DNA of 46,020 nt from Eubacteriales bacterium (GTDB lineage Bacteria > Bacillota > Clostridia > Lachnospirales > Lachnospiraceae), in the NCBI GenBank assembly GCA_030526665.1, contig JAUNCI010000009.1, positions 1 through 46,020 on the forward strand, read 5' to 3'. The position numbers were made by a program, and so were the translations under genes. Within the stretch, counting starts at the first letter, position 1. Each line of letters opens with the position of its first letter. The notes under the pieces were generated by a model that saw only the letters and a program-made list of their open reading frames with translations, did no database searches and had not been told where the DNA came from. Shown one piece after another: positions 4,696 to 26,913 of this stretch.

Positions 4696-4717
4696 TATGG
4701 TGATCCTCCTTTATATT

Positions 4718-4745
4718 GGGAGCTATTGCTTTTCGTTGAGCTCCC
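4718..4745 (-). promoter_or_regulatory. hairpin in the galK leader, next to the RBS
   Basis: On the minus strand, GGGAGCT and AGCTCCC form a perfect 7-bp stem with a 14-nt loop, about 10 nt upstream of the AGGAGG of galK. There is no T tract, so it is not a terminator. It could be a stability or translation-control element, or an operator, since the arms contain GAGCT/AGCTC. The role is inference. Confidence 0.5.
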
Positions 4746-4847
4746 TAAATGATTACGATTGATTTTTTCTTATAATATCAATATAATGAGATAAAAGAGC
4801 GAATTCAACAATAATATTGGGATTTTTTTAAAGGATATTGAGATTTT

Positions 4848-5804
4848 ATGCAGATTCAGATAGATAAAGAACAAAAAGAAATAAAAAAGCATGGAAGCTA
4901 TGAATTTCCGGTTCTTCTAAGTCCGGAAGCCTTATCAAATTTTGATACGGAAAGCTTTCAATGGCACTGGCATACAGAGATAGAATTGACTTTTGTTTTA
5001 GATGGAATGATTGAATACCAGGTAAATGAAACGTTGTATCATTTAAAAGAAGGCGAAGGGCTTTTCTGTAATACAAATGTATTGCACGCCGGGCATAAGG
5101 GAGAGACTAAGGATTGTCGATACCTGTCAGTAACGTTTCATCCGCGATTTTTGTATGGATATGGATCAAGTGCGATGCAGAGAAAATATGTAAATCCGAT
5201 TTTGAATAATCCGAGACTTTCTTCGATTCACTTTACGAATCAGGAGAAATGGATGCAGCAGGTGTTGGAACAGCTAAAAAAATTACAGCAGCTGCAGCAG
5301 ATTCAGGAAGCAGAAGATAATAGATCAGAGGCGCAGGACTCGGGGACAGACGCATTGGAAATGCCGGATTCAAAGAGTAATACACTGGAAATTGATGCAC
5401 AAATCAGTTTGCTGACGATTTGGAAATTGATATTCGAGAATGTAAATCATGAGAGAACGGAAGCTACGGAGGCTGGGGTGACGCGAGATACGGAACGAAT
5501 TCGTACAATTATTGCATACATACAGCAAAATTATATGGATCCGATTTCCCTGGAAGATCTGGCGGAAGAAATTCATCTGTGCAGATCTGAGAGCTGCCGT
5601 TTGTTTAAACGTTATATGAATGAAACGATTTTTGATTATCTGATGCGGTTTCGAATTGAAAAAAGTCTTGAATTTTTAAGAGACCGAAGCTTAAGCATAA
5701 CGGACGTTGCGGAAAAGGTCGGATTTGCAACACCCGGTTATTATTCCCGTATGTTCCGACAGCTCATGGGGTATACGCCCAGAATGTACCGAAAGAGAGA
5801 ATAA
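4848..5804 (+). CDS. AraC-family transcriptional regulator, divergent to galKTE
   Basis: This is a 318-residue regulator with an N-terminal cupin-type effector domain (about 15-110, with the WHWHTEIELTFVLDG pattern typical of AraC_binding) and a C-terminal double helix-turn-helix (about 213-315, ending in the VAEKVGFATPGYYSRMFRQ signature). Between them is an unusual Gln/Glu/Asp-rich, low-complexity insert (about 145-182) with predicted helical LQQLQQIQ repeats. It is transcribed away from galK with 152 bp between, so activation or repression of the galactose operon is likely by context. The effector is not shown by sequence. A 23-bp decayed tandem repeat follows its stop codon. Confidence 0.93.
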   Translation: MQIQIDKEQKEIKKHGSYEFPVLLSPEALSNFDTESFQWHWHTEIELTFVLDGMIEYQVNETLYHLKEGEGLFCNTNVLHAGHKGETKDCRYLSVTFHPRFLYGYGSSAMQRKYVNPILNNPRLSSIHFTNQEKWMQQVLEQLKKLQQLQQIQEAEDNRSEAQDSGTDALEMPDSKSNTLEIDAQISLLTIWKLIFENVNHERTEATEAGVTRDTERIRTIIAYIQQNYMDPISLEDLAEEIHLCRSESCRLFKRYMNETIFDYLMRFRIEKSLEFLRDRSLSITDVAEKVGFATPGYYSRMFRQLMGYTPRMYRKRE

Positions 5805-5807
5805 AAT

Positions 5808-5853
5808 AGTAAAAAGATTTGGGAAAACAGAGTAAAAAGTATGGGAATCATAG
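5808..5853 (+). repeat. 23-bp imperfect tandem repeat after the regulator stop
   Basis: Two adjacent 23-bp units both begin AGTAAAAAG and continue with TTTGGGAA or TATGGGAA (16 of 23 positions identical without gaps). They begin 3 nt after the stop codon of the AraC gene. The region is AT-rich, so part of the similarity may be chance. Confidence 0.5.
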
Positions 5854-5886
5854 ATTGGAACAAAAAGGGAGAAATCGTTGAAATAT

Positions 5887-5924
5887 AAAAGCGCCTCATC
5901 CACAAATTATTGTAGATGAGACGC
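5887..5924 (-). terminator. terminator of the hemolysin III gene
   Basis: On the minus strand, GCGTCTCATC and GATGAGGCGC form a 10-bp stem with one G-T pair, extendable through TACA/TGTG, followed by TTTTAT. It lies just after the stop codon at 5931. Confidence 0.8.
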
Positions 5925-5930
5925 CAGAGA

Positions 5931-6593
5931 TTATAATGGCATTTGTGCTACAAAGAAATACATTACGATAAAGTGGCATGCACTTCCCAGCATTACAAAG
6001 ATATGGAAGATTTCATGCGATCCGAAATTTTTGTGGCGGGAATTGAACAGAGGAAGTTTCAGTGCATAGATGATTCCGCCAACAGTATAAATCAATCCGC
6101 CCGCTAAAAGCCATTCAAAACCGGCCTTTGGCAAAGCCTGAATAATTGGTACAAAGGCAAGGACACATAACCATCCCATTCCGATATATAATACGGAAGA
6201 AACCCATTTCGGACAGGTAACCCAGAAAAATTTGAAAATCATACCAAGTATCGCGATACTCCATACGAGAACACAGAGAATATAGCCGATGCGATTGTGC
6301 AGAACAATCAGGCATACAGGAGTATAGCTTCCCGCAATCATTACAAAAATCATCATATGATCCATTTTTTTCAGAAAACGGTTTACTTTTGGAGAAGAAT
6401 CAACGGTGTGATAAATTGTGCTGGCTGCGTACAGCAGCATCATCGTCAAGACAAAGATGCTAAGTGCTATGATATGAATTTTATCAGGCTGACGTGCAGA
6501 CTTGACCAAAAGTGGTGATGCAGCAACCATTGTAAGCAAAAATGCTATGCCATGAGTGATGGCACTACCCGGATCTTTAATTTTTATACTCAT
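5931..6593 (-). CDS. hemolysin III family (PAQR-type) integral membrane protein
   Basis: The 220-residue chain has about seven hydrophobic segments. The family's conserved metal-site residues are visible: the first His and Ser (ITHG near residue 13; YAASTIYH about 55-62), and the C-terminal HEIFHIFVMLGSACHF block (about 193-208). The length and pattern match the bacterial YqfA/HlyIII group, which is related to eukaryotic progestin and adipoQ receptors and was named for a Bacillus haemolysin. In vivo function is uncertain, with membrane lipid homeostasis among the suggestions. It is a single gene ending in its own terminator. Its upstream region holds a perfect GTAGTA/TACTAC inverted repeat at 6686-6702. 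Confidence 0.92.
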   Translation of the reverse strand: MSIKIKDPGSAITHGIAFLLTMVAASPLLVKSARQPDKIHIIALSIFVLTMMLLYAASTIYHTVDSSPKVNRFLKKMDHMMIFVMIAGSYTPVCLIVLHNRIGYILCVLVWSIAILGMIFKFFWVTCPKWVSSVLYIGMGWLCVLAFVPIIQALPKAGFEWLLAGGLIYTVGGIIYALKLPLFNSRHKNFGSHEIFHIFVMLGSACHFIVMYFFVAQMPL

Positions 6594-6807
6594 AGTAACG
6601 CCCCCTTTGAAAAATTATACTCGTATCTATGAAGTAATTTAATAGATACAAATACATCTTGATATAGCAAAGATGATAATATGAAGTAGTAATCAATACT
6701 ACATAACTTATATAAGAATACTATAACACGCATTTGTGATAATGCAAGTGCTTTTGTAATTATTTAATGATTTCTTAATTTATTTATTTGTGAGTTGGCA
6801 ATTTAAT
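6594..6807. other. AT-rich intergenic region between hlyIII and proA
   Basis: No gene is visible here. It holds a perfect 6-bp inverted repeat GTAGTA / TACTAC with a 5-nt loop at 6686-6702, which is a possible operator for hlyIII. Several ATGAAGTA repeats occur between 6630 and 6945. The proA promoter begins at its right edge. Confidence 0.4.
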
Positions 6808-12845: not shown

Positions 12846-12873
12846 ATTCATTATCTTGTATTTGTTACCTTGT
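12846..12873 (-). repeat. 14-bp tandem repeat across the AraC stop codon
   Basis: Read on the minus strand, ACAAGGTAACAAAT (with the TAA stop) is directly followed by ACAAGATAATGAAT. Eleven of 14 positions match and all three differences are transitions. Confidence 0.55.
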
Positions 12874-13737
12874 CGGTCGTTTTCCCGGTGATGCACCGGT
12901 GTGTTTTTTGTACAATCGATAGAAATTCGACAGGTTATTGAAACCGCATTCGATGGCAATCGTCTGGATGCTTTTGTTTGTGTTGTCCATCATTTCATTT
13001 GCTCGCAGGATTCGCTGCAAAGAGACGTAGTCAGAGAAACTCGTGTCTGTTGTTTTGTGGAAAAAGTGCGAGAAATAGTTGGGACTCATGAAGACAGTGT
13101 CGGCGGCTTCTTTTAATGTGATTTTGCTACAGCAGTTTTCATTGATATAAATCAGGGCGGCGCCGAGGCGATCCATGGCCTTTTGTTTTTGAATCAGAAG
13201 CTCTTCTGATTTTGGCTTGCCCTGATAATATCTGGTCAGAAGTGTGAGCAGATATAGGATATCGGAATGGATGATCGTTCGGTATCCCATTTCTTCATTA
13301 GACCATTCTACTAACAACTCTTTCATTATCGTATGAATCTTTTTTGAAATAATTCCATTAGAATCGATTTTGTTCTGGAAATTACTTCCGTGCTCGACGA
13401 AAGAGCGAAGGAAGTCCAATTGCTCGCTTTCGGAATAAACCGAGATAAAACTGGTCTCAAAATTTATAACGATGACATCCATTTCCCGGTCGAGGATTTG
13501 CCAGCCGTGAGGCTCCGCGCTGTTAAAAATCATTGTGTCCCCGGCCTGCACCTCATAAATTTTTCCGTTTGCGTAGTAACGTCCTTTTCCGGAACGGATG
13601 TATGTGATCTCGAAATACGTATGCCAGTGGAATGGATTTTTTACATTGTCGCTGGCATACAAAGGAATTTCGCGAATGCAAAATGGAAAATCCTGATCAA
13701 GCTCTATAACGTCCTGTTCTTGCGTAATATTTATCAT
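12865..13737 (-). CDS. AraC-family transcriptional regulator coupled to the GH31 gene
   Basis: The 290-residue regulator has an N-terminal cupin domain (about 20-100, with FHWHTYFEITYIRSG and the GDTMIFNSAEPH turn) and a C-terminal AraC DNA-binding domain (about 190-288, with the IAIECGFNNLSNFYRLYKKHTG second helix-turn-helix signature split across it). Its ATG overlaps the TGA of the upstream GH31 gene in an ATGA junction, so translation is probably coupled. The regulator likely controls the GH31 gene and perhaps the divergent corrinoid/ABC genes, sensing a sugar or glycoside. That is inference from position. It has no RBS of its own beyond the GH31 tail. Confidence 0.93.
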   Translation of the reverse strand: MINITQEQDVIELDQDFPFCIREIPLYASDNVKNPFHWHTYFEITYIRSGKGRYYANGKIYEVQAGDTMIFNSAEPHGWQILDREMDVIVINFETSFISVYSESEQLDFLRSFVEHGSNFQNKIDSNGIISKKIHTIMKELLVEWSNEEMGYRTIIHSDILYLLTLLTRYYQGKPKSEELLIQKQKAMDRLGAALIYINENCCSKITLKEAADTVFMSPNYFSHFFHKTTDTSFSDYVSLQRILRANEMMDNTNKSIQTIAIECGFNNLSNFYRLYKKHTGASPGKRPTR

Positions 13738-16262
13738 TTTCTAATAACAACGGTTTGTTCGGTACCGTCGTAATCGACCGTAAGTACTTTATTGTCAAAA
13801 GAAGCCAGGTGAATCTCAAATTGGCGTGAGATTTCCATTCCTTTATAGGAACCGATACGGGCACCGATGGTGAGCGTGCCTGTAGCGTCCTTCCATGTAA
13901 GCGGAATCATGCTGTACTGTCCGTCTTCAAACGCATAAGTGTCCCCTTCATCTTCGTAGAGTGTAAAGGAGGCATCTTTGCCGGGATAGATTACGAGTTT
14001 TACCGGCTGTTCCGGAATCTGAGCTGCATACTGCAGGTTTTCGGCAGCAGGAATGATGCTTCCGGCTTTTACAAATATTGGCATGATATCTAATGGAGCA
14101 GATACAGTAGTGGTCTGCCCGCCCTCGTAGCGTATGCCGGTCCAGAAATCAAACCAGGAAGCACCCTTTGGCAAATAGATTTGCCAGTCTTTGCTATGCT
14201 GAACAGGTTTGCTGTTTGGCATGTAATACATTGGTTCGGTTACCGGACTCACCAGGAAAGATGGTCCAAACATATACTCTGAACTTTGTTTTACTGCTTC
14301 CGGATCCTGAGCAAAATCAAAAAGCAAACTGCGCATCATAGTATAGTGATTGAAATGCACGGCACCTGCCAGTGAGTAAATATATGGCATCAGACGGTAA
14401 CGCAGCTGAATATATTTTTTCAATGTATCATAAACCGGCTCGCCTTCTTTTCCGAAATTCCAGATTTCACGAGGCGTGTCTGTTCCATGCGAACGGAACA
14501 TTGGCAAAAATACGCCGAACTGTAACCATCGGGTGTAGAGTTCCTGATAGCCTTTGTCACGAATGCCTTCCTCGAAATCACCCTGCCAGAACCATTTTGG
14601 TTCCGGATCATTTTCACAGCAGCAGCCGCGGTTTTGCCATTTTTCCTTTACGGTAAAAAATGCACCGATATCCAAAGTCCAATACGGATAGCCGCTCATA
14701 CTCATGTTGAGACCCTCGGCAATCTGGCGGCGCATTGTTTCCCAGGTTGCGGTAATGTCCCCGGACCACAGGACGGCACCGTATTTCTGACTCGATGCGT
14801 AGCCGGAACGAGTTAAATTCAGGACACGTTTCTGATCCGTTGCTTTTCGCTGATTTTCATAAATGCCTTTTGCGTGGAGCAGGGAATATACATTTGCAAA
14901 TTCCGGATCGAGGAAGTGTTTGTGTTCGCCGCCGACGATAGAATAACGTTCCCATGGCTCTCTTTTGACCGGACCATTCCAATCGGGACCGCTGAACGGC
15001 TCGGTGGAATCACACCACCAGGAGTCAAAACCACTGTTAAACAGTTCGATTTCTGCCTGCTTCCAGTATAGCTCGCGAGCTTCTTCATTAAATGCATCAT
15101 AGGTGCAGAGATCATTGAGAAGGAAGCCTTTTTCCATAAATTCTGTATGATCGATGGTTCCGTTGTTCATATTGGGCCATACGGAAACCATTGCGTGAAC
15201 GTTCATTTCATGAATTTGATCAATGCAATTTTTTAGATTTGAGTAGCGAGCCGGATCAACTCTTTTTTCGCCCCAGTGATCTTCGCTCCAGGAATACCAG
15301 TCCTGCACGACGCAATCGAGCGGAACATTCAAATCGCGATAATGTTTTGCAACGTCCACAAGTTCCTGATCGGATTTGTAGCGTTCCTTGGACTGAATAT
15401 ACCCAAAAGCCCATTTTGGCAGCATAGACGCACGGCCTGTGAGACGACGATAGGAGGCAATGATCTCATCAGCGTTTTCGCCGACAATGAAATAGTAGTC
15501 TAATTGTTTCACGGTATCCAGAAATAGGTAAGAACCATTGACATCATCATTGAATGTCATCAGCGAACAGCAATCGACAAAAATTCCATATCCTTTGTCG
15601 GACAGCATAAAAGGCATTGGAATGCGCATATTATGCTGATAGAGATACTGATTCTGGCGGCGATGATCGTAGATGCCTTCTTCGGCCTGACCAAGGCCGA
15701 AAATGGATTCGTCAGAAGCAAAATCAAAAAACAGCTTTGCACGATAGGCCTTTCGATCGTTAATCGCTTTCAGATTCAGGATGAAATTTCGCTCGCCGTC
15801 GACAGTTTTCACACGTTTGATCACGGGGTCTTCATCCCCTGTGGTATAACGAACAACATCGGTCTCACTTAACTCTTTTCCGGCTTCCTGCAAGAGGAGG
15901 CGATCTTGTGTAGAGTTCGATATAGGCTGCGATACAGAATCCAATGTCTGACCGGATTCGGATTCTGAGCTGAAATCAGAAGCTGATTCGGGTTTGAGAG
16001 CACTCCATGTAAAGTGCTCGGTATTTTTGTCGATGGAGAGCTTTAATTTTGAAGAGCAGATTTGAATATCATTTTTACTTTCGAATATTTCCGTCGAAAC
16101 AGGAAGAAAAGTTTCTGATGTATTGACAAGCAAAGATGGTTCCGCAAATTCTTCTTTTAATGTATATACACAGCGAAAAATATTGTCTGCGATTGGCTGA
16201 ATCAAATAATTTCCTTTTTTGCCGGTGCACTGAATTTGGCCATTTATATTTGAATGTTTCAT
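13734..16262 (-). CDS. glycoside hydrolase family 31 alpha-glycosidase, cytoplasmic
   Basis: The retaining alpha-glycosidase is 842 residues from the ATG at 16262, which has AGGAGGG 6 nt upstream. The open frame extends 31 codons further without an RBS. An N-terminal galactose-mutarotase-like beta domain (about 20-265) carries FGLGQAEEG. The (beta/alpha)8 barrel holds LPKWAFGYIQSKERY (281-295), the nucleophile D418 in WWCDSTEP and the likely acid/base D502 in WSGDITATWE. A C-terminal DUF5110-type domain starts near 752. WWCDSTEP is closer to alpha-xylosidase-like GH31 members than to the WxDMNEP glucosidases, so the substrate could be alpha-xylosyl or another alpha-glycoside. There is no signal peptide, so it acts on imported oligosaccharides. 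A Ser-rich insert (about 92-118) is unusual. Confidence 0.93.
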   Translation of the reverse strand: MKHSNINGQIQCTGKKGNYLIQPIADNIFRCVYTLKEEFAEPSLLVNTSETFLPVSTEIFESKNDIQICSSKLKLSIDKNTEHFTWSALKPESASDFSSESESGQTLDSVSQPISNSTQDRLLLQEAGKELSETDVVRYTTGDEDPVIKRVKTVDGERNFILNLKAINDRKAYRAKLFFDFASDESIFGLGQAEEGIYDHRRQNQYLYQHNMRIPMPFMLSDKGYGIFVDCCSLMTFNDDVNGSYLFLDTVKQLDYYFIVGENADEIIASYRRLTGRASMLPKWAFGYIQSKERYKSDQELVDVAKHYRDLNVPLDCVVQDWYSWSEDHWGEKRVDPARYSNLKNCIDQIHEMNVHAMVSVWPNMNNGTIDHTEFMEKGFLLNDLCTYDAFNEEARELYWKQAEIELFNSGFDSWWCDSTEPFSGPDWNGPVKREPWERYSIVGGEHKHFLDPEFANVYSLLHAKGIYENQRKATDQKRVLNLTRSGYASSQKYGAVLWSGDITATWETMRRQIAEGLNMSMSGYPYWTLDIGAFFTVKEKWQNRGCCCENDPEPKWFWQGDFEEGIRDKGYQELYTRWLQFGVFLPMFRSHGTDTPREIWNFGKEGEPVYDTLKKYIQLRYRLMPYIYSLAGAVHFNHYTMMRSLLFDFAQDPEAVKQSSEYMFGPSFLVSPVTEPMYYMPNSKPVQHSKDWQIYLPKGASWFDFWTGIRYEGGQTTTVSAPLDIMPIFVKAGSIIPAAENLQYAAQIPEQPVKLVIYPGKDASFTLYEDEGDTYAFEDGQYSMIPLTWKDATGTLTIGARIGSYKGMEISRQFEIHLASFDNKVLTVDYDGTEQTVVIRK

Positions 16263-16598
16263 ATTCCCTCCTAAATTTTGATGCAAACGCTCATTCAAGT
16301 TCGGCGTTGCGAGACTTGGCGTTGGATTCGGAACAGTATTAGCTGGTATCTTCAAATCCGAATCTGTGCACTCGTCTGCATCTGCACATCTGTATATCTT
16401 TAGTTATAGTTGATAGCAAGGGACAATGTCAATTAATTTCCATTATTTTGATGTATAGTTAGTATAATAGAACACAAAACTGCGTAAGATAGTATAATTT
16501 TATCATAATATAAGCAATTGTTATTTGACAGGGTGAAAACTAAAATAGAATCATACAGAGGTGAAAGCGGAAAATTGCCTCAGGAGGGAACTTAGAAA
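16263..16598. other. divergent regulatory region between GH31 and the corrinoid methyltransferase
   Basis: No gene is visible here. It contains a minus-strand promoter for GH31 and, for the plus strand, TATAAT boxes at 16463-16468 and 16493-16498 plus a TTGACA at 16525-16530 without a clean partner. An AGGAGGG at 16582-16588 serves the methyltransferase start. The close divergence suggests both transcripts may share a regulator. No cobalamin riboswitch was found here. Confidence 0.5.
16403..16432 (-). promoter_or_regulatory. promoter of the GH31-AraC operon
   Basis: On the minus strand, the -35 TTGACA (16427-16432) and -10 TATAAC (16403-16408) are 18 bp apart. This leaves a leader of about 135 nt before the GH31 start. 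Confidence 0.55.
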
Positions 16599-19463
16599 AT
16601 GATTATTATTGGAGAGAAATTAAACGGCTCAATTCCACCGGTTGCGAGAGCAATTGCGGAGCGTAACGAGTTGTTTATCAAGGAACGTGCGCGTATGCAG
16701 GCGGAATGCGGCGCAACGTTTTTGGATGTATGTGCTTCCGTAGATGAAGATGTAGAAACAGAAACTCTGAAATGGATGATCGATCTGGTTCAGGATGTAA
16801 CAGATGTACCGATCTGTGTGGACAGTCCGAGTGCAAATGTTTGTATCAGTGCCATTCCGTTTTGTAAACGTCCGGGATTGATCAACTCCGTTTCTCTGGA
16901 AGGCAACAAAATTGATATTGTTTTTCCGGAAATCGCAGACACGGATTGGGAATGTGTTGCACTTTTATGTGACAATGACGGAATTCCGACAACCGTAGAA
17001 AAACGTATCGAAGTATTCCATGGAATCATGGAAAAGGCAAAACAGTATGGTATTGCACCAAATAGACTGCACATTGATCCATTGGTTGTGACTTTGGCAA
17101 CAGATCAGACAGCACTTCTCGTATTTATGGAATGCTGCCGCCAGATCAAAGCGGAATATCCGGATATTCACATCACCAGTGGACTTAGTAATATTTCCTT
17201 TGGACTTCCGGTTCGAAAAAATGTGAATTTTGCATTTATGGCATTGGCGATGAGCGCAGGTATGGATAGTGCTATTGTGGATCCGACGAACCAGCAGATG
17301 ATGGGAATTGTATATGCGACAGAAGCACTTTTAAACAAAGATGAATTTTGTTTGAATTATATCAAACACGCCGGAAATCAGAAAAAAGAAGAAGCTGCAA
17401 CGAAAGCTGCACCGAAGGCAGTCAATGCTGCAGAAGAAAAAATGCAGATGGTCGCCAATGCGGTTGAAAATGGAGACCGCAAAAATGTCGGTCAGTATGT
17501 GAAAGACGCTTTGGCGGCCGGCTGTAAAGCAATTGATATTTTGAATATTGGAATGATCGGGGCAATGGATATTGTCGGCGATAATTTCAAAAAACAGGTT
17601 ATTTTTGTTCCGCAGATGCTGGCAGCAGCCAGAGCAATGAAAGCCGGTGTGGATGTTTTGAAACCATATCTGGCAGATGGAAATTCCGGAAGTATCGGAA
17701 CAATGATTTTAGGAACCGTTGCAGGTGATTTCCATGATATCGGAAAAAATCTCGTAGGCATGATGATCGAAAGTGCCGGTATCGATGTGATCGATATAGG
17801 CGTGGATGTACCGATCAGCACATTTATTGAAGAAATCAACAATCATCCGGAGGTTACAATTGTAGGTTTATCTGCACTTTTGACGACCACAATGCCATCT
17901 CTTCGCGATACGGTAGCTGCTTTAAATGCAGAACCTTTCCGCGACCGAATCAAAATTATGGTAGGCGGTGCTCCGATTACACAGGAATTTGCAGATGAGA
18001 TCGGTGCAGATGCATATACAGCGGATGCGGCGGCAGCTGCGAAAAAAGCAAAAGAATTGATTTTGACCTATGGCGGCATGACAGTAACACAGGACGGTCA
18101 GCAAAATGTCACGGCTCCTGATTTAAATGCGGCAGCAGAGATGAACGCATCCGGAAATGCTGCGGAAGATACAGGGGAGACGGCTGCAGAGGCTGAAAGA
18201 GTCTTTGATGACAGCAGACTACAGGAAATTCTGGCAAAACCGGTTCCGGCTATGAATCTCTCAGCGAGCCCTTACAAAAAGAACTGGGCAGCAGTGCAGG
18301 AGAAATGGAAAGGCTATTGGAAGCACGAAAATACAGGACGCCCACTGATGTGTGTAATTGTTCGTAAACCGGAAGTGGAACAGTATTCTGACGGAACACC
18401 GGTTGAAGGCGGTTATCTGGATCAGATCTGTCAGGGTAAATATTACAATATGCCTGAAGAACTGAAATGGAAAGATATGGAAGACAAATACCAGAATGCG
18501 CAGCGTATTGTAGATCGTTATCGTTACTTCTGCGAAACACATGAATTTCTGGGTGAAAGCTTCCCGAACTTAAATATTGACTTCGGCCCCGGCTCATTGG
18601 CTTCTTATCTCGGTTCCGATATTGGATTCAAAGAAGATACCGTATGGTTTAAATCCTGCCTGAACAGCTGGGATGATGCACCGAAGTATGTATTTGACCC
18701 GGAAAATGAATGGTTTTTGAAACACATTGAACTTGCACGTGAATGCCGTAGATTATCCGGAAATGATTTCTATGTGGATATGCCGGACCTGATGGAAAAC
18801 ATCGATGTACTTGCATCTCTGCGCGGTGCGCAGGACGTGTTATATGATTTGCTGGACGAGCCGGAAATCATTGATGAGAAAATCAAGGAAGTAACAGATC
18901 TTTACTTTGATTATTATGATAAATTCTATGACGCGATCCATGATGACGAAGGTGGTAACGCATACACGGTATTCCAGATCTGGGGACCGGGAAGAACGGT
19001 AAAACTGCAGTGCGATTTCTCAGCAATGATGGATCCGAAAGATTTCAAGGCATACATCAAACCATCGCTGGAAAAACAGACAGAAAAAGTCGATCAGGTA
19101 CTTTATCATCTGGATGGGCCGGATGCAATCAAACATCTGGATGCGTTAATGGAAATTGAGGGAATTGATGCCCTTCAGTGGACAAGCGGCGATGCAGGCC
19201 CGGACGGAACGCTTCCGGATTGGGATGTGATTTATGACAAAGCTATTTTGGCCGGCAAATCTATTTGGGTAAAAGTTTATTCAGGCTCCTTTGAAGATTG
19301 GCTCACGAATGTAGACAGAATTGTACAAAAATATGGTTCACACAGCTTATTCCTTCTGTTTCCGGAGATGTCTCAGGAACAGGGACAGCGCCTGCTTGCC
19401 TATGCGGAAGCGCATTGGAGCGATGTAAAAGGAACATTTTGTGAGGAACACGGACTTAGATAA
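16599..19463 (+). CDS. three-domain fusion: pterin methyltransferase, corrinoid domain, UroD/MtaA-like methyltransferase
   Basis: The 954-residue chain joins three parts normally on separate proteins. Residues 1-255 are an MtgA/AcsE-type methyl-corrinoid:tetrahydrofolate methyltransferase TIM barrel (IIIGEKLNG at 2-10, DVCAS 43-47, CVDSP 73-77, GLSNISFGLP 195-204). After an Ala/Lys/Glu linker (256-282), residues 283-490 are a corrinoid protein with helical cap and Rossmann part. It shows DFHDIGKN (377-384, H379 the predicted cobalt ligand), S425-A-L and G456-G457. A second acidic Ala-rich linker precedes a UroD/MtaA-like domain (about 541-950). There the thiol-enzyme HxC zinc motif appears as H837-L-D839. 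I infer a one-chain demethylase passing a methyl group from substrate to cobalamin to THF. There is no MetH-type reactivation domain, and a RACo-like gene lies downstream. The start has AGGAGGG 10 nt upstream. Confidence 0.9.
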   Translation: MIIIGEKLNGSIPPVARAIAERNELFIKERARMQAECGATFLDVCASVDEDVETETLKWMIDLVQDVTDVPICVDSPSANVCISAIPFCKRPGLINSVSLEGNKIDIVFPEIADTDWECVALLCDNDGIPTTVEKRIEVFHGIMEKAKQYGIAPNRLHIDPLVVTLATDQTALLVFMECCRQIKAEYPDIHITSGLSNISFGLPVRKNVNFAFMALAMSAGMDSAIVDPTNQQMMGIVYATEALLNKDEFCLNYIKHAGNQKKEEAATKAAPKAVNAAEEKMQMVANAVENGDRKNVGQYVKDALAAGCKAIDILNIGMIGAMDIVGDNFKKQVIFVPQMLAAARAMKAGVDVLKPYLADGNSGSIGTMILGTVAGDFHDIGKNLVGMMIESAGIDVIDIGVDVPISTFIEEINNHPEVTIVGLSALLTTTMPSLRDTVAALNAEPFRDRIKIMVGGAPITQEFADEIGADAYTADAAAAAKKAKELILTYGGMTVTQDGQQNVTAPDLNAAAEMNASGNAAEDTGETAAEAERVFDDSRLQEILAKPVPAMNLSASPYKKNWAAVQEKWKGYWKHENTGRPLMCVIVRKPEVEQYSDGTPVEGGYLDQICQGKYYNMPEELKWKDMEDKYQNAQRIVDRYRYFCETHEFLGESFPNLNIDFGPGSLASYLGSDIGFKEDTVWFKSCLNSWDDAPKYVFDPENEWFLKHIELARECRRLSGNDFYVDMPDLMENIDVLASLRGAQDVLYDLLDEPEIIDEKIKEVTDLYFDYYDKFYDAIHDDEGGNAYTVFQIWGPGRTVKLQCDFSAMMDPKDFKAYIKPSLEKQTEKVDQVLYHLDGPDAIKHLDALMEIEGIDALQWTSGDAGPDGTLPDWDVIYDKAILAGKSIWVKVYSGSFEDWLTNVDRIVQKYGSHSLFLLFPEMSQEQGQRLLAYAEAHWSDVKGTFCEEHGLR

Positions 19464-19714: not shown

Positions 19715-20590
19715 GTGAATAAGCGGAAGGTATATCCCTGGTACTTCGTGCTGGTTCCATTGCTGATTTACTGTGTGTTCAGTGTAATCCCGGGAATCAT
19801 GGGTATTGCATATTCATTCACAGACTGGTCGGCATACGGCAAAGAACTTCACTTTGTCGGCTGGAAAAACTTTCTCGAAGTATTTAACGGAAAAGGTGAT
19901 TATTTAAAATATATTACCAACACAATGTTGTTTACTGCGGTAACAGTAGTTGCAAAAATGCTGTTTGGTCTCATTCTGGCGGTAATATTGGCAAAAAATA
20001 TTAAGGGGAAAAATTTTCACAGAGCGGTTATGTATTTACCATCGGTTCTTCCGATTCTGGTAACCGGTCTTACATTTACATCAATATTGAATCCGAAAAA
20101 CGGATTTTTGAACGAATTCCTTCGTGCAATCGGACTTGGCAAGCTGACACAGATGTGGCTGACTAATCCGAAAATTGCATTCTGGTCTGTCATGGGCGTA
20201 GATATCTGGCGTGGTACCGGTTATATCATGACACTTTTGATCGTCGGTATTCTGGCTATCCCGAAAGTATATTATGAAGCGGCTTCGATCGACGGTGCAA
20301 GCTGGTGGGCACAATTCAAATACGTTACAATGCCAATGCTTCGTCAGACACTTTCTGTTTGTATCGTATTGAACGTAATCTATGGATTGAAAATCTTTGA
20401 TATGGTTTATGCTCTGACAAACGGCGGCCCGGGAAAACGTACCGAGGTTCTCTACACAGCGGTATACAAGATGATGTCAAAAGGATTGTATGCACAGGCA
20501 ACGGCAATCAGTTCTGTATTGTTCATCTTTATGCTGATTGTAGGATTCTTTATGGTTAAGATCCTGACCAGAAACGAGGTGGTGGAATAA
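19715..20590 (+). CDS. sugar-type ABC transporter permease, MalF-like (CUT1)
   Basis: The 291-residue inner-membrane subunit has six hydrophobic segments. The EAA loop, EAASIDGASWWAQFKYVTMP (about 190-209), contacts the ATPase. The N-terminal pattern PLLIYCVFSVIPGIMGIAYSFTDW is typical of the sugar CUT1 family rather than peptide or metal importers. It starts with GTG at 19715, 5 nt after GGAGG. The next permease overlaps its TAA by one base. No ATPase gene lies in the operon, which is normal for CUT1 systems that share an MsmX-like ATPase encoded elsewhere. It is probably one half of the membrane channel for the ligand of the 21512 binding protein. Confidence 0.94.
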   Translation: MNKRKVYPWYFVLVPLLIYCVFSVIPGIMGIAYSFTDWSAYGKELHFVGWKNFLEVFNGKGDYLKYITNTMLFTAVTVVAKMLFGLILAVILAKNIKGKNFHRAVMYLPSVLPILVTGLTFTSILNPKNGFLNEFLRAIGLGKLTQMWLTNPKIAFWSVMGVDIWRGTGYIMTLLIVGILAIPKVYYEAASIDGASWWAQFKYVTMPMLRQTLSVCIVLNVIYGLKIFDMVYALTNGGPGKRTEVLYTAVYKMMSKGLYAQATAISSVLFIFMLIVGFFMVKILTRNEVVE

Positions 20591-21420
20591 TGAATGCAAA
20601 GACTAAGAAAAAAGTGCAGACAGTATTGAAAAATATTGTTGCATGGATCGCTTCACTGATCGTCATTGTTCCATTGTTTCTGATTATACTGAATGCCTTC
20701 AAAGGGAATGGAGAGGCGTTGACGATGACGATCTCTCTTCCGAAAAAATGGGTGTTCACAAACTTCATGACGGTTATCGAAAAAGGAAAGCTGATTCGAA
20801 GTTTTGTAAACAGCGTAATCTATGCCGGAGGAGCAACGATCCTGTGTGTGTTCTTTGACACCATGGCAGCGTATGTGTTCTCCAGAAGACGCTCAAAGGG
20901 AATGAATGCCTTGTATATGTTCGTGGTTTTGGGTATGGTCATTCCGATCAACTATGTAACATTGACAAAGGTAATGCAGTTTACACATTTAAACAACTCG
21001 GCAATCGGAATTATTATTCTGTACATTGCGATGCAGACGCCATTTACCATCTTTCTTACCTATGGATTTGTCTCAAAAATCCCGGTGGAACTGGATGAAG
21101 CAGCTTTGCTGGATGGATGTTCACCATTCCAGTTGTATTTCAAAATTGTATTGCCATTGTTAAAACCGGCGGTCGTTACAGCAGGGGTTTTATGTTTCCT
21201 GAATTGCTGGAACGAATTTATGATGCCGTTGTATTTCCTGAATTCCTCAAACAAATGGCCAATGACACTTGCGGTATATAATTTCTTTGGTCAGTTTGAG
21301 ATGAATTGGAATCTGATTTGTGCAGACGTTATCCTGACATGTGCTCCTGTTGTCATTATGTATCTGGCATGCCAGAAATACATTGTAGGCGGACAGACAT
21401 CAGGCGCAGTGAAAGGTTAA
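20590..21420 (+). CDS. sugar-type ABC transporter permease, MalG-like (CUT1)
   Basis: The 276-residue partner permease has six hydrophobic segments. Its EAA loop begins DEAALLDGCSPFQLYFK (about residue 170), and the FLNCWNEFMMPLYFL segment near residue 210 is characteristic of MalG-type CUT1 permeases. Its ATG overlaps the preceding TAA (TAATG), giving tight translational coupling with the MalF-like subunit. The stop region is followed by a decayed 16-bp echo (AAAGGTTA at 21412 and again at 21428). The usual sugar specificity of the family supports import of a mono- or oligosaccharide, but the exact substrate is not readable. Confidence 0.94.
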   Translation: MNAKTKKKVQTVLKNIVAWIASLIVIVPLFLIILNAFKGNGEALTMTISLPKKWVFTNFMTVIEKGKLIRSFVNSVIYAGGATILCVFFDTMAAYVFSRRRSKGMNALYMFVVLGMVIPINYVTLTKVMQFTHLNNSAIGIIILYIAMQTPFTIFLTYGFVSKIPVELDEAALLDGCSPFQLYFKIVLPLLKPAVVTAGVLCFLNCWNEFMMPLYFLNSSNKWPMTLAVYNFFGQFEMNWNLICADVILTCAPVVIMYLACQKYIVGGQTSGAVKG

Positions 21421-21511
21421 GACGTTAAAAGGTTACTTGTAAAAAATGTATTGGGAACTTTACAGAGAGGGACTCTGTTAAGAAATAATGAATAACCTAG
21501 GAGGGAATGAA

Positions 21512-22825
21512 ATGAAACGAAAAGCATTATCCGTATTACTCGCAGGTGCAATGGCAGTATCTATGGGGACAGTAGCCATGGCTGAAGAATGGACACAGGA
21601 TTATTCCGGAACAACTATCACATTGATGGCCAGCCAGGACTGGATTGAAGATTCAGAACAGGAACTTGGAGCGAAGTTCGAAGAAGCTACAGGTATCCAT
21701 GTTGATTACCAGATTCTTCCGGCAGATCAGTATCAGGACAACCTTCTGAACAGACTGAACAATGGTGAATGTACAGATATCTTTATGACACAGTCCGGTT
21801 TTGCTGTTGATACTACATATCATGTGGATGAAAATGCAGTATCACTTGCTGACGAGCCATGGGCAGATGCATATTCTGTCTTCTCAGCAGCACAGACATC
21901 TGTTGACGGTGTTAACTATGGTCTTACCTATTATGATACAACAACAGACTACTACATGATCTACAACAAGAAAATTCTTGCTGATGCAGGCGTAACAGAA
22001 GTTCCTACAACATTTGAAGCATTCGAAGATGCATGTCAGAAAGTTCTCGATGCAGGTGTTACACCAATCTATGAGCCTGTAGCAGATGGATGGCATCAGA
22101 CAATGCTCTGGACAGCAGCAGCTCAGATCCTTGATATCAAAAATCCTGGAACAATCGAAAAATTGAACAAAAATGAAGCTACATTCGCAGAAAACGAAGA
22201 TATGAAAACAATGCTGGAACAGCTTGCTGATCTTGCTGCAAAAGGATACTTCGGCGAATACTACATGAGCGATGAATTCGCAAATGCAGAAACAAACCTT
22301 GCAACAGGCGAATATGCTATGTGCTTCCTTAAATCCGGCGCAATCAAATCTATCGTTGCAAACGAAGCAAATGCAGGATACACAGAAGAAGATTTCGGCA
22401 TCATGCTTCTTCCACTGTTAGACAACCAGAACCTGAACGTACATCCTACAGGTCCTTCAAAATTCATCTACAGCAAATCTGAAAACATTGAAGCAGCTAA
22501 ATTATATCTTCAGTACATCACAACAAAAGATAGCCTTCAGTATGTAATCGATAATGCATCAGACGTAGAAAACTTCCCGATCGACATGGGACAGACACCT
22601 GAATACAGCGCCACAACAACAGAATTCCTTGCACAGTTTGACGACTCTACATCAGGAATGGTTCTTCAGGATGTTGCTACATACTTCAACGAACAGTGGA
22701 TGGAAATCTCTGCAAACATCGCAGCTATGTTCATCGGCGACATGACAGCAGAAGAAGTTCTTCAGGCAATCGATGACGGACGTGCACAGCTTGCTGCAGC
22801 AGCCGGCGACGAAGCTTGGCAGTAA
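21512..22825 (+). CDS. extracellular sugar-type solute-binding protein (family 1), no lipobox
   Basis: The 437-residue protein starts at the ATG at 21512, preceded by GAGGG. An upstream in-frame ATG at 21488 lacks a site. A basic start MKRKALS, a hydrophobic core and AMA before EEW give a type I signal peptide cleaved near residue 24. There is no cysteine lipobox, which is unusual for a Gram-positive binding protein. The mature part has the SBP_bac_1 pattern: TITLMASQDW strand, EEATGIHVDYQ, TDIFM, and YYMIYNKKIL. It is the receptor for the two permeases just upstream. Its codons favour AAC, TTC and ATC more than its neighbours, as in highly expressed genes. A terminator follows, closing the operon. 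Confidence 0.93.
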   Translation: MKRKALSVLLAGAMAVSMGTVAMAEEWTQDYSGTTITLMASQDWIEDSEQELGAKFEEATGIHVDYQILPADQYQDNLLNRLNNGECTDIFMTQSGFAVDTTYHVDENAVSLADEPWADAYSVFSAAQTSVDGVNYGLTYYDTTTDYYMIYNKKILADAGVTEVPTTFEAFEDACQKVLDAGVTPIYEPVADGWHQTMLWTAAAQILDIKNPGTIEKLNKNEATFAENEDMKTMLEQLADLAAKGYFGEYYMSDEFANAETNLATGEYAMCFLKSGAIKSIVANEANAGYTEEDFGIMLLPLLDNQNLNVHPTGPSKFIYSKSENIEAAKLYLQYITTKDSLQYVIDNASDVENFPIDMGQTPEYSATTTEFLAQFDDSTSGMVLQDVATYFNEQWMEISANIAAMFIGDMTAEEVLQAIDDGRAQLAAAAGDEAWQ

Positions 22826-22892
22826 GTCTTGCAGAGCTTGATTTGAACGGGTTCAAAAGTCAATTGGAAAATCAGTGAATAAATAAGTTTTG

Positions 22893-22937
22893 CTCCCGGA
22901 AAGTTATGGTTTTTCTGTAACTTTTCGGGAGTTTTTT
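22893..22937 (+). terminator. terminator of the sugar ABC operon
   Basis: CTCCCGGAAAGTTA pairs with TAACTTTTCGGGAG over 14 positions with one internal G-T pair, followed by T6. Confidence 0.9.
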
Positions 22938-23037: not shown

Positions 23038-23724
23038 ATGAAAAAGATAACATGGCTTCTTACAGCAATGATGGCTGTATCTATTCCATTTACGGCAGGT
23101 GCTGAAGAACAGACAACAGCAGTGGAGAGCGCGGAGCAATCAGCAGATACAGATTTTGACAGTCTTTCATGGGATAGTTATAAACTTATGATTGATGACA
23201 TCGTTTATCAGTTTCCGTTCATGGTTTCCGACCTTGATGCTGAAAAATGGACAACCTCAGAAGATTTGACCGCAGAGCTTTCGCCAAACAGCTATGGCCT
23301 GTTTTATTACAGCGAAGTAAAAACGGGAAGACAAGTAATGTTCCAGATCGCAAATATGGCAAATAATACTATCACTGCCCAGGAAGGAATTATTTTTGGT
23401 ATAAAAATTGATAATTATGACTGGGATTTGAACGATGCGAATATTCGCCTTCCTAAAGGTATTGTTTATGGTAAGTCTACCAGAGAAGACATTGAAGCAG
23501 CATATGGAACTCCGTCAGATGTCTATGAGGGCGATCTTTATACGAAGCTTACCTATTCGACAGATTATTATGAGGAAGTAGAATTGCAGATTGGTACAGA
23601 AAGTGGAGTCCTGGAAGGAATTGATCTTGAGTGCTATCGTCAGCCGGAGGGTTTTGATACAGGAGAGGTAAGCACAGAGGTTCCTGCTGAGGTTGCTGCA
23701 TATACGGCTCCTACTGAACTGTGA
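23038..23724 (+). CDS. secreted two-repeat protein, N-terminal part before a frameshift
   Basis: I do not recognise a named family. The frame starts at an ATG after GGAAAGGAAAA and encodes a type I signal peptide (MKKITWLLT, hydrophobic core, AGA before EEQ) and a first repeat-like domain with DIVYQFPFMVSDLDAEKWT, RLPKGIVYGKSTREDIEAAYG and LTYSTDYYEEVELQI. It stops at TGA 23722-23724, inside a perfect 7-bp tandem duplication. The next frame continues with a second copy of the same domain pattern, so the intact gene was probably one protein of about 495 residues. Whether the shorter 228-residue product is made and stable is unknown. Expression could still occur from the promoter upstream. Confidence 0.8.
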   Translation: MKKITWLLTAMMAVSIPFTAGAEEQTTAVESAEQSADTDFDSLSWDSYKLMIDDIVYQFPFMVSDLDAEKWTTSEDLTAELSPNSYGLFYYSEVKTGRQVMFQIANMANNTITAQEGIIFGIKIDNYDWDLNDANIRLPKGIVYGKSTREDIEAAYGTPSDVYEGDLYTKLTYSTDYYEEVELQIGTESGVLEGIDLECYRQPEGFDTGEVSTEVPAEVAAYTAPTEL

Positions 23725-23728
23725 ACTG
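23715..23728 (+). repeat. perfect 7-bp tandem duplication causing a frameshift
   Basis: TGAACTG occurs twice in a row at 23715-23721 and 23722-23728. Removing one copy restores one reading frame through ACT GAA CTG GGA GAG. The second copy's TGA is the premature stop of the upstream frame. Confidence 0.9.
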
Positions 23729-24532
23729 GGAGAGGATATTACATCTCCGGTGATTCGAATCAGAGATAAATACTATACAATGCCGGTTCCGGTAAGTACT
23801 TTGATTGCAGATGGATGGACCATTCGAGAGTCTGAGACTGCAGAATACATTAAAGGAAATGGAAGTGATTGGGTTGGACTGCAGCTGGAAGGACAGTATA
23901 TGCATACCATCGCTAAAAACTTCAATGCAAATGCGGTTACACCGGAAAATGCATGGGTTACCGAAATGACTTTTGGAGAGAGTGATTTGAATTTAGATGC
24001 GGAATTTTCCGGAGGTATTCGTCTCGGAATGTCCGAGGCTGAACTTCTGTCTCTGTTAGAGAATACAAATCTGCAGTATGAGAAAGAAGAGTCCGGGGAT
24101 TACTTCTATTATGTCATCAATATGAAGACAAATGAGTCAGATGAGCAAAGAATTGTAAGTTTTTATCAGGGTGAAAGTGGTTATCATGATATAGATAGTG
24201 CATATGCGATTGAAATCGTTGATCGAGAACCGGATTTTTCCGCTGTGGAAGCTAAGTCGGAAGAAACAGAGGAATCTGCAGAAGAAACAGGAGATAAAGA
24301 CAATGCTGCAGCAGTTACATTGCTGGATAGTGCCCAGGCGCTGGTAGATGCAGGAATTGATCAGAACAAAGACAGTATCAAAGTGATTCTGGAACAGATT
24401 AAAACTTCACTGGGCGACTCCAATGCAAATGCAGTACAGCTGCTGGACAGCGCGATTACACTTCTTGAATCAGACAGTGTGGATGCTGCATCTGTATCGG
24501 CTCTGCTTTCCAGTGTAAAGGTGCTGCTCTAA
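23729..24532 (+). pseudogene. C-terminal part of the frameshifted secreted protein
   Basis: This frame is shifted by +1 relative to the upstream half and has no good start codon or RBS. It begins with a second copy of the domain: DKYYTMPVPVSTLIADGWT lines up with DIVYQFPFMVSDLDAEKWT upstream, and GIRLGMSEAELLSLLENTN with the upstream GKSTREDIEAAYG. It then has an acidic linker (SEETEESAEETGDKDN) and a C-terminal helical tail with two similar LLDSAxxL units. No signal peptide is present, so on its own it could not be exported. It is therefore best read as the detached end of the preceding gene. The function is unknown. It ends before a terminator at 24566. Confidence 0.75.
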
Positions 24533-24749: not shown

Positions 24750-26237
24750 ATGGAAAGAAAAGTCTTTTTTTCAAGAGATAATAAAGCAATTGAAGTGCAG
24801 GAAGGAACCACGGTTCAGCAGGCGCAGATCATAGCTGGGAGAATACCGGATGCTGTTTGCGGAGGAAAAGGAACTTGCGGAAAATGTAAGGTTCGTGTAA
24901 ATGGAAAGGAAGTGCTGGCTTGTCAGACAAAGATTTATGAGGATGTGGTTGTTGATGAGCCTTTTAGTACAGAGGAACAGACAGGTGCAGGTGATGCAGA
25001 TATAGAGACAGAATATTATGCCACGGTTGAGAAAGAATACTATGCGGCAGTGGACGTGGGAACAACGACACTGGCTGCTTATTTATTGGATGCAAAGTCC
25101 GGTGAAGTTGTCGGGACAAATAGTATGCTAAATCCGCAGAGAAAATACGGTGCAGATGTAGTGGAACGCTGCAATCACAGCTTTTCGGAGGGGTGGGCAG
25201 CATTAAGCAGTGTGGTTCGTGAGGCGGTGAACCGACTTTTGGAACAGCTTGCCGGACGAGTAGATGCTTCGGTGACAGACATTACCAGAATCGTTATGGT
25301 CGGGAATACAGGAATGCATCATTTGTTTCTGGAACTTCCGACGGAAAAACTTGCGTTGGCACCTTACATGCCATATACGAAAGAGGCGGTGCGTATGCCT
25401 GCTTGTGAGTGTGGAATCAAAATAAATCCTAAAGCGGAAGCTTTCTGGCTGCCGAATATCGGAGGCTTTGTTGGGGCGGATACGAGTGCCTGCATTTTGG
25501 CTTCGCAAATTTATGAAGCAGAAGAGATGACATTGCTCGTGGATATAGGAACTAATGGCGAAATGGTATTGGGAAAACGAGAGACAGGACTTCTGGCGTG
25601 TGCAGTGGCTGCTGGACCTGCATTTGAAGGTGCAAAAATTTCCTGTGGAATGCGGGGATATGCCGGAGCTATTGATCATGTATATGTGGAAGAACGAGAT
25701 ACTTCAAACGCAGAAATCAGCTATCATGTAATTGGTGAGAAGAAACCGATTGGAATTTGTGGATCCGGATTGGTAGATGCGGCAGCGTGTCTGCTCAAAA
25801 AAGGTCTGATCGATGAAACCGGGCGTATGGAGAATAAGTATGTTTTTGCAGATGGGGTGTATTTGTGTCAGCAGGATATTCGGGAACTCCAGCTGGCAAA
25901 AGCGGCCATCGCGGCAGGGATTCGGATCATGTGTAAGCAGAAGGGAATACGAGTGGAGCAGATAGAGAAAGTTCTGCTGGCGGGTGCGTTTGGAAATTAC
26001 ATGAATCCGAAAAGCGCTTGTGAGATTGGCATGCTTCCGAGTGTGCTGCAAAATCGAATTACTTCCATAGGAAATGCAGCAGGTGAAGGTGCTGTGATTG
26101 CGGCTGGAGATCTGCGAGAATTTGAAAAAATGAAAGTGATTGCGGAAAAAGTAGAATATCTGGAATTGGCGACAAGCAGCGAATTTCAATATATTTATAT
26201 AGAAGAAATGGATTTTGACCATTTTGAGAATGAATAA
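24750..26237 (+). CDS. RACo-like reductive activator of corrinoid proteins
   Basis: The family uses ATP to drive electrons from a 2Fe-2S centre onto inactive Co(II) corrinoid proteins. Residues 1-85 are a plant-type ferredoxin domain with C37-x5-C43-x2-C46-x11-C58. From about 95 on there is an ASKHA-type ATPase with AAVDVGTTTLAAYLLD, LLVDIGTNGEM (about 265) and VLLAGAFGNYMNP (about 410). At 495 residues it is shorter than many characterised RACo proteins of over 600 residues, mostly through a compact region between the two domains. It is the only corrinoid activator in the window, and the 16599 fusion lacks an activation domain, so the two probably work together. A DUF2284 gene follows 88 bp later. 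Confidence 0.9.
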   Translation: MERKVFFSRDNKAIEVQEGTTVQQAQIIAGRIPDAVCGGKGTCGKCKVRVNGKEVLACQTKIYEDVVVDEPFSTEEQTGAGDADIETEYYATVEKEYYAAVDVGTTTLAAYLLDAKSGEVVGTNSMLNPQRKYGADVVERCNHSFSEGWAALSSVVREAVNRLLEQLAGRVDASVTDITRIVMVGNTGMHHLFLELPTEKLALAPYMPYTKEAVRMPACECGIKINPKAEAFWLPNIGGFVGADTSACILASQIYEAEEMTLLVDIGTNGEMVLGKRETGLLACAVAAGPAFEGAKISCGMRGYAGAIDHVYVEERDTSNAEISYHVIGEKKPIGICGSGLVDAAACLLKKGLIDETGRMENKYVFADGVYLCQQDIRELQLAKAAIAAGIRIMCKQKGIRVEQIEKVLLAGAFGNYMNPKSACEIGMLPSVLQNRITSIGNAAGEGAVIAAGDLREFEKMKVIAEKVEYLELATSSEFQYIYIEEMDFDHFENE

Positions 26238-26325: not shown

Positions 26326-26913
26326 ATGAACGATCTGACGATAAAAGATCTGATTGCAGAAGCACAGAAAATAGGATTTACTACGGTAACGCAAATGAAT
26401 CCTGCGACAATTGAACTGCTCGATGAAGTACGTGATATGTGCAGTGCAAATACATGTGGAATGTACGGGAAAAACTGGTCCTGTCCTCCGGCATGCGGTG
26501 AGTTGAGTTTCTGCCGAGAAAAAATCCGGCAGTATTCCGATGGCATATTGGTGCAGACGGTCGGTGATGTTGAGGACAGCTGGGATTTTGAAGCGATGAT
26601 GGAAATCGAGGCGATGCATAAAGCGCATTTTTCAGAACTGATAGAAGCACTTGCGCCAGAAGTCAGCGATAAGCCGGAATGCAATGATAAACCATCTATG
26701 GAGAACAGAGCAATCCTTGTGCTTGGCGCAGGGGCATGCACGATCTGCAGGGAATGCACCTACCCGGAAAAACCTTGCCGTTTTCCAAATAAAAGGATTT
26801 CTTCATTGGAGGCATATGGAATCGTAGTGAGTGAGCTGTGCAGACGAAATGGAGTGGGATATTATTACGGATCTCAGAAAATGGCATACACCTCTTGCGT
26901 GTTGATGAAATAG
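26326..26913 (+). CDS. DUF2284 cysteine-rich putative metal-binding protein
   Basis: The 195-residue soluble protein shows the DUF2284 cysteine pattern: CSANTCGMYGKNWSCPPACG (about 38-57) and GACTICRECTYPEKPC (about 137-152), closing with a SELCRRNGVGYYYG region. The cysteine spacing suggests an iron-sulfur cluster or other metal. DUF2284 has no established enzyme activity. Its position directly after the RACo-like gene, probably on one transcript, suggests a part in electron supply or in corrinoid activation. That is inference only. The start ATG follows GAAGGAACTGAAAAT. The gene end carries an 11/12-bp tandem repeat and then a bidirectional terminator. Confidence 0.9.
   Translation: MNDLTIKDLIAEAQKIGFTTVTQMNPATIELLDEVRDMCSANTCGMYGKNWSCPPACGELSFCREKIRQYSDGILVQTVGDVEDSWDFEAMMEIEAMHKAHFSELIEALAPEVSDKPECNDKPSMENRAILVLGAGACTICRECTYPEKPCRFPNKRISSLEAYGIVVSELCRRNGVGYYYGSQKMAYTSCVLMK

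Follow-up and report, generated by a model that had tools for sequence, protein, structure and literature searches.

A stretch of 46,020 nucleotides from a Lachnospiraceae member (Eubacteriales bacterium, JAUNCI010000009.1; the entire stretch is referred to as the window) carries a single open frame with an ATG start (16599-19463, forward strand), whose 954-residue product combines three parts in one chain. These are a domain of the methyltransferase II (MT-II) type, which act on tetrahydrofolate (THF), a corrinoid carrier domain, and a C-terminal domain remotely related to the UroD superfamily, called UroDC in the following. This order of a THF, a cobalamin and a UroD-like domain had been proposed in a preliminary description of the DNA and is borne out by Pfam and NCBIfam matches as well as by profile comparison (Table 1).

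The first two domains exceed the respective Pfam cut-offs with matches to Pterin_bind (residues 29-228, E 2.6e-19), B12-binding_2 (residues 285-355, E 1.6e-18) and B12-binding (residues 368-479, E 4.8e-23), and residues 1-264 reach 339.6 bits with the NCBIfam model NF005719 (methyl-THF:corrinoid/iron-sulfur protein methyltransferase; cut-off 259). The solved chain most similar to domain 1 is 4o0q (E 1.9e-92), with AcsE-type (1.4e-38) and MetH chains far behind. As judged from these matches, domain 1 is a methyl-THF methyltransferase resembling the MT-II components of O-demethylases. The entries 4o1e and 4o1f, which share the sequence of 4o0q, are cited in a passage of PMC13222342 for the positions of methyl-THF and THF in CdmA. 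Domain 2 is most similar to 1y80 (E 1.1e-53), which served, according to the relevant lines of PMC3727330, in solving the carrier of a putative O-demethylase; it shows a complete D-x-H-x-x-G corrinoid motif at residues 377-382 (D377, H379, G382) and reaches the NCBIfam cut-off of none of the named carriers. Alanine and glutamate make up 41% of linker 1 and 27% of linker 2, compared to 17% over the entire chain, in agreement with the Ala/Glu-rich linkers described previously. An assembly artefact as source of the fusion is ruled out by fused relatives in many separate assemblies, including those of isolates; Blautia sp. MSJ-19 (L029) and B. schinkii DSM 10518 (L031) are isolates with the fusion.

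Table 1. Features of the fused gene and its surroundings in the window, with the matches on which the assignments are based.
Feature	Position	Strand	Basis and remarks
Domain 1, MT-II type methyl-THF:corrinoid methyltransferase (residues 1-264)	16599..17390	+	Pterin_bind, NF005719, 4o0q
Linker 1 (residues 257-285), Ala/Glu-rich	17367..17453	+	A+E content; variable among relatives
Domain 2, corrinoid carrier (residues 285-480)	17451..18038	+	B12-binding_2, B12-binding, 1y80, DxHxxG
Linker 2 (residues 489-558), Ala/Glu-rich	18063..18272	+	A+E content; gapped and variable in alignment of relatives
Domain 3 (UroDC), distantly related to the UroD superfamily, putative methyltransferase I	18273..19463	+	HHalign; invariant residues
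AraC-type regulator	12865..13737	-	Pfam HTH_18; its cluster in 14/28 loci
GH31 glycosidase, xyloglucan alpha-xylosidase type, divergent from fusion	13734..16355	-	PF01055, E 1.3e-90
ABC permease 1, sugar type	19715..20590	+	BPD_transp_1; 75% identity to L106
ABC permease 2, sugar type	20590..21420	+	BPD_transp_1; 73% identity to L106
Extracellular solute-binding protein	21488..22825	+	SBP_bac_1, E 3.7e-23
Terminator-like stem (18 pairs and T tail), 3' of importer genes	22892..22932	+	Consensus scan
RACo-type reductive activator of corrinoid proteins	24750..26237	+	RACo_C_ter, E 1e-73; Raco_middle, E 1.9e-48
DUF2284 protein	26326..26913	+	PF10050, E 9.3e-46; adjoins RACo also in L027, L029, L106

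The adjoining sugar importer of the ATP-binding cassette (ABC) type and the divergent gene for a glycosidase of family GH31, both noted earlier, are present, and the genes for RACo and the DUF2284 protein, missing from the original list of neighbours, lie downstream of the fusion. The scan for terminators returned 14 candidates (10.4 expected in shuffled sequences), and the next longest stem after the one listed has 9 pairs. Between the importer and RACo genes, two open reading frames (ORFs) without significant Pfam match overlap in different frames (23038-24532, forward strand), the first coding for 228 residues with a signal-like N-terminus and the second for 279 residues; a frameshift or base error in the gene of a single secreted protein could explain this arrangement.

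The C-terminal UroD-like domain

Residues 536-954 alone match no Pfam family at E<=1, and the window domain stays below the cut-off of 23.9 bits of the Pfam URO-D family (PF01208), which is touched by 9 of the 28 UroDC family members scanned (best E 0.0075). The relation to UroD emerges from an HHalign comparison of a profile of 37 divergent UroDC members (A3) with a profile of four PF01208 proteins (A4): 125 columns align at E 3.3e-10 (probability 96.7%), and the invariant H-x-D-G of UroDC falls on the H-x-C-G of the PF01208 proteins. Profile A4 in turn matches the solved structures of UroD and of MtaA (4ay7), which has H-I-C-G at the aligned site. The H-x-C-G motif has a zinc role in MtaA; all 37 aligned UroDC members contain H-x-D-G at this position instead. 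The preliminary label "UroD/MtaA-like" thus holds as far as the HHalign link is concerned, but neither a Pfam match of the isolated domain nor the MtaA-type motif goes with it. Searched against solved structures, the C-terminal profiles A2 and A3 obtained just chance-like or insignificant matches, the match of CdmB (9rui) to the UroDC family profile being very weak and not significant (E 0.85). Going by these profile comparisons, UroDC forms a distant branch within the UroD superfamily and has a signature of its own.

Nine residues are invariant over the 37 members (D730, D736, D806, H837, D839, G840, H846, Q860 and W861 in window numbering), which argues against a catalytically dead domain, a possibility raised in the preliminary description. 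The missing cysteine is not an argument against a function as methyltransferase I (MT-I), since CdmB, an MT-I of the UroD superfamily, is stated in a passage of PMC13222342 to contain no zinc and to show no zinc dependence. By the logic of operon and fusion, UroDC is found where a substrate-specific MT-I would be expected, and a role on the donor side is likely.

Proteins matching PF01208 are themselves encoded beside or near UroDC genes in several loci (L106 15103-16149, L048 1948-2994, L100 5772-6881, L091 11035-12402), and some of the related genomes contain many UroD-type proteins each, with 17 PF01208 matches in G002, 17 in G023 and 12 in G037. The PF01208 protein of L048 matched no solved chain when searched alone, while the alignment A4 did.

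Fused and separate forms in related genomes

In a set of 61 genomes consisting of relatives and the window's own genome, the UroDC family (threshold E<=1e-5) occurs in 18. A sample of the order contains it in 25 of 295 genomes, two of which (G000, the window genome, and G005) show the fused length, and a sample of the phylum in 21 of 398, with the fused length in the window's own genome only. Scanning one genome per species yielded 27 UroDC loci from named Blautia, Robinsoniella, Murimonas, Faecalicatena and others. Of these, 13 are fused, two of them (L040, L051) being cut by contig ends; the fusion occurs in Blautia and Robinsoniella. Nine of ten fused relatives aligned over the full length show 72-74% identity and the tenth, L034, shows 65%; in the latter (3863-6789) the MT-II part is split over two overlapping frames, reflecting a frameshift or assembly error. 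The fused form occupies 12 of the 34 rows of the tree and two changes are sufficient to explain this pattern, which fits one origin followed by one later separation (L035) as the simplest course.

In locus L106 of genome G002, which belongs to the same genus, each of the three parts is encoded by a gene of its own; all genes of this locus are on one strand, in the order permease (75% identity to the window), permease (73%), GH31 (55%), UroDC (62%), DUF2284 protein (47%), RACo (46%), PF01208 protein, MT-II (60%) and corrinoid protein (67%), with spacings from the second permease onward of -4, 16, 19, 15, 190, 33 and 85 bases if the first possible start of every frame is taken. The corrinoid protein is the sole B12-binding_2 match of G002. 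This split operon, which carries the parts together with an alpha-xylosidase-type GH31, sugar permeases and RACo, represents strong evidence for the methyltransferase, carrier and UroDC parts working together. Among other loci, L036 has the MT-II and UroDC genes 32 bp apart, and L091 codes for a UroDC protein (34% identical) beside a corrinoid protein, with RACo three genes away and a PF01208 protein, a transporter and a CobW protein in the surroundings. A pyruvate formate-lyase-like glycyl radical enzyme is encoded three genes from a distant UroDC member in L099 (12486-14963).

The association with corrinoid proteins extends to the order sample, in which corrinoid-domain matches at E<=3.1e-38 were counted if located in frames of fewer than 400 residues or in the fusion. 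A corrinoid protein, separate or fused, is present in 22 of the 25 UroDC-positive versus 27 of the 270 UroDC-negative genomes (Fisher P 3e-16, with the weaker cases G213 and G319 added to the 27). Stratification by the families f2, f5 and f22, to which 21 of the 25 positives belong and for which the negatives are the listed genomes only, gives P 1.6e-4, with corrinoid proteins in 8/9 positive versus 1/12 negative genomes of f2 and in 4/4 versus 5/15 of f22.

The window genome itself comprises 1.55 Mb at an estimated completeness of 92%, other genomes of the genus ranging from 2.0 to 5.3 Mb. It appears to be devoid of an ordinary MetH, because the fusion is its only B12-binding_2 match; its three B12-binding matches are the fusion and frames of 572 and 495 residues, the last below the cut-off. 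PF01208 has no match in this genome either, a result that does not extend to MttB- and MtaB-type methyltransferases, which were not searched for. Acetyl-CoA synthase (PF03598) is matched in the window genome and altogether in 13 of the 15 genomes of the genus with a UroDC gene, G007 (83% complete) and G024 (89% complete) being without a match. The respective values are 11/12 for those carrying the fused form and 1/23 for the remaining genomes of the list.

Proposed demethylation and known corrinoid systems

With a probability of about two in three, we regard the fusion as a single-chain corrinoid demethylase which transfers the methyl group of an O-methylated sugar or glycoside to THF; the direction of transfer, the MT-I role of the last domain and the plausible sugar donor are what we infer. 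The UroDC domain would bind the methylated substrate and hand the methyl group to the Co(I) state of the corrinoid domain, which would then swing on the Ala/Glu-rich linkers to the N-terminal domain, where the methyl group would be loaded onto THF in an MT-II reaction. RACo would reduce the cobalt again whenever it has become oxidized to Co(II), and the methyl-THF would feed into the Wood-Ljungdahl pathway. An O-methylated sugar or glycoside is the most likely substrate; it would be taken up through the adjoining ABC transporter and would also be acted on by the GH31 of the alpha-xylosidase type.

The arrangement in the window recalls the three-component O-demethylases, for which a donor protein, a carrier, a THF acceptor and an activator are described in the cited section of PMC3727330. 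On the sequence level, an MT-II for THF, a carrier with the DxHxxG motif and a reductive activator of the RACo/RamA type are present, and the likeness to Mtv, Odm, Vdm and the CobDH system of Desulfitobacterium consists in an MT-II near 4o0q/4o1e/4o1f, a carrier near 1y80 and a RACo-type activator. However, the window has all three parts in one chain, its candidate for the donor side belongs to a separate remote family failing PF01208, and its neighbours are of the glycan rather than the aromatic type. We regard it as rather unlikely that the donor is a methoxylated aromatic compound or its glycoside, as in the known O-demethylases of acetogens. The GH31 encoded next to the fusion is of the alpha-xylosidase type, whereas phenolic glycosides are usually cleaved by other enzymes, and the UroDC domain fails to match PF01208, the family of the MtvB/OdmB-type MT-I. 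An aromatic donor would agree with the closest relations of domains 1 and 2, which are to solved O-demethylase parts, and with the mention of Blautia producta for demethylation by a corrinoid system (PMC12915777).

Other systems share part of the architecture. CdmBCA of Acetobacterium dehalogenans combines a UroD-superfamily MT-I with a carrier and an MT-II, as outlined in PMC13222342, but consists of three proteins acting on chloromethane, a haloalkane, and its sequence link to UroDC is not significant. CmuA unites the MT-I and carrier roles in one protein (same passage), whereas its MT-II is the separate protein CmuB; the 16 NCBIfam models matched by the window protein do not include TIGR01463 (MtaA/CmuA). 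In MetH, too, cap and B12 domains come after a THF domain, and the window protein aligns with it over residues 2-511, but with 231 bits against a cut-off of 1010.85 and with an additional C-terminal UroD-like domain. A plain MetH variant is ruled out by the missing homocysteine-binding and activation domains, which were not found in a Pfam scan of the window protein. The designed fusion MT-L5-CP shows that a methyltransferase and a carrier can be functional in one chain, but is artificial, has two parts and acts on an aromatic substrate (PMC9930637, in the part cited). Fused corrinoid/methyl transfer proteins are known from Methanosarcina, going by a title cited in PMC10418091, and MetH-like enzymes are treated as modular in a passage of PMC12478193. 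The previous statement that known systems consist of separate proteins does not hold in every case, as CmuA, the Methanosarcina proteins and MetH show. While part-fusions are known, the three-part fusion with UroDC seems to be undescribed: among the papers listed in literature searches, which show at most 20 matches each and cover few subscription papers, there was no account of it, nor of an anaerobic methyl-sugar demethylase, and no sign of the well-studied enzyme considered in the preliminary description.

The chain may also be read in the reverse direction, with methyl-THF methylating the corrinoid and UroDC serving the acceptor side, in the manner of MetH, which methylates homocysteine, or MtaA, for which coenzyme M is the acceptor. 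The acceptor enzyme MtaA is a member of the UroD superfamily matched by profile A4 of the PF01208 neighbours, the window genome has no B12-binding_2 match besides the fusion and hence apparently no ordinary MetH, and in L047 (9962-13579) the genes for UroDC, a corrinoid protein and the methanol methyltransferase MtaB (PF12176) stand in a row. Nevertheless, we consider this reversal unlikely, in view of the H-x-D-G in place of the MtaA motif in 37/37 members, the identified neighbours (sugar importer, GH31 and RACo), the lack of the MetH-specific domains, and the acetyl-CoA synthase of most fused genomes of the genus as a use for methyl-THF.

Glycan context and the possible substrate

The best solved matches of the window GH31 are alpha-xylosidases, namely BoGH31A (4.5e-151), Xyl31A (1.4e-139) and 7kmp (9.6e-139), the next one following at 1.9e-82. 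Of 16 genomes with close relatives, nine (G000, G002, G009, G011, G012, G013, G019, G025, G032) encode a GH31 within 10 kb of the gene, against an expectation of 0.54 derived from genome sizes and GH31 counts; the related genomes in this count are not independent, though the arrangement varies. The GH31 gene is transcribed divergently in the window, lies upstream in the same orientation in L039, L043, L045, L046 and L106, and is located downstream in L027, L029 and L033 and further downstream in L028, L041 and L042; its cluster is present in 11 of the 28 loci of the locus set. Of the remaining 22 positives in the order sample, five have a GH31 within 10 kb (G199, G208, G212, G239, G252). Further glycosidases near UroDC genes belong to GH29 (L032, L085), GH38 (L036, L100), GH2 (L092, L098, L107, L112), GH3 (L035, L086), GH120 (L122), GH94 (L038) and GH4 (L049), or are melibiase-like (L032), GH95-like (L034), GH30-like (L113) and GHL6/GH42-like (L094).

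Several observations weigh against a sugar-directed corrinoid demethylase. Seven of the 16 genomes (G005, G007 with a contig of 5.9 kb, G014, G023, G024, G027, G037) have no GH31 within 10 kb, and the distribution of GH31 on the tree is patchy, requiring 10 changes across the 34 rows, of which some are short loci; a GH31 kept by every relative is thereby ruled out. The further glycosidases amount to 17 of 50 hand-picked, often large ORFs, a share without background control in glycosidase-rich genomes, and no glycosidase was identified in L025, L030, L031, L037 and L050, where 3, 4, 0, 1 and 1 ORFs were scanned, L030 having a sugar-type ABC importer. The UroD link of the C-terminal domain is, as judged from the profiles, a remote one. 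By analogy to MtaA in methanogens, the UroDC protein of L047 may act on the acceptor side, and this arrangement may represent a second use of the family. Within f5, corrinoid proteins occur in 6/8 positive versus 11/22 negative genomes, which is not significant alone (P 0.21), and G160, G239 and G252 (83-89% complete) contain the UroDC family without any corrinoid match; some members may act without corrinoid.

The last point might be taken further to regard UroDC as a glycan enzyme which does not itself use corrinoid, the fusion being a lineage-specific accident. The three genomes just named would agree with this, as would the finding that, among 40 neighbourhoods, L091 and L106 are the only ones in which a separate corrinoid protein accompanies a single-domain member. 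It appears very unlikely, however, given the co-occurrence with corrinoid proteins, the split operon, the gene neighbours in L036, L047 and L091 and the retention of the fusion in 12/34 tree rows. In all, the preliminary interpretation is partly supported; the glycan link gains from the split operon with its GH31 and from the GH31 enrichment, and is weakened by the genomes and loci lacking such neighbours.

A tentative and rather doubtful extension of the proposed sugar demethylation would define a family of anaerobic corrinoid-dependent O-methyl-sugar demethylases, of which Blautia would have a complete one-chain machine acting on the disaccharide 2-O-methyl-xylosyl-alpha-1,3-fucose (2-O-Me-Xyl-alpha-1,3-Fuc) of the pectin rhamnogalacturonan II (RG-II). 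According to passages of PMC7939467, Bacteroides thetaiotaomicron cuts 21 of the 22 linkages of RG-II, but not that of 2-O-Me-Xyl-alpha-1,3-Fuc, which was tracked by high-performance liquid chromatography in the spent medium of a mutant; BT1002 frees it from chain A (PMC10154630, in the part cited), and the point is also supported by a passage of PMC12282258. This RG-II leftover would suit the combination of an importer, a GH31 of the alpha-xylosidase type, a demethylase and, near some members, fucosidases, but so would other methyl sugars. The fusion would strip off the 2-O-methyl group and thereby enable the GH31 to cleave the bond, and the methyl carbon would end up in acetyl-CoA.

The UroD-like family present in 25/295 genomes of the order is hardly detected by the Pfam URO-D model, and its fused form would represent a natural single-chain counterpart to the designed demethylase fusions. 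For comparison, the sugar route referred to in PMC10033563 is the oxidative P450 demethylation of 6-O-methyl-galactose. If the proposed function is correct, glycan breakdown and acetogenic one-carbon metabolism would be joined in one enzyme, which would open an oxygen-independent route for O-methylated sugars in the gut and may account for the fate of the leftover methyl-xylosyl-fucose of RG-II.

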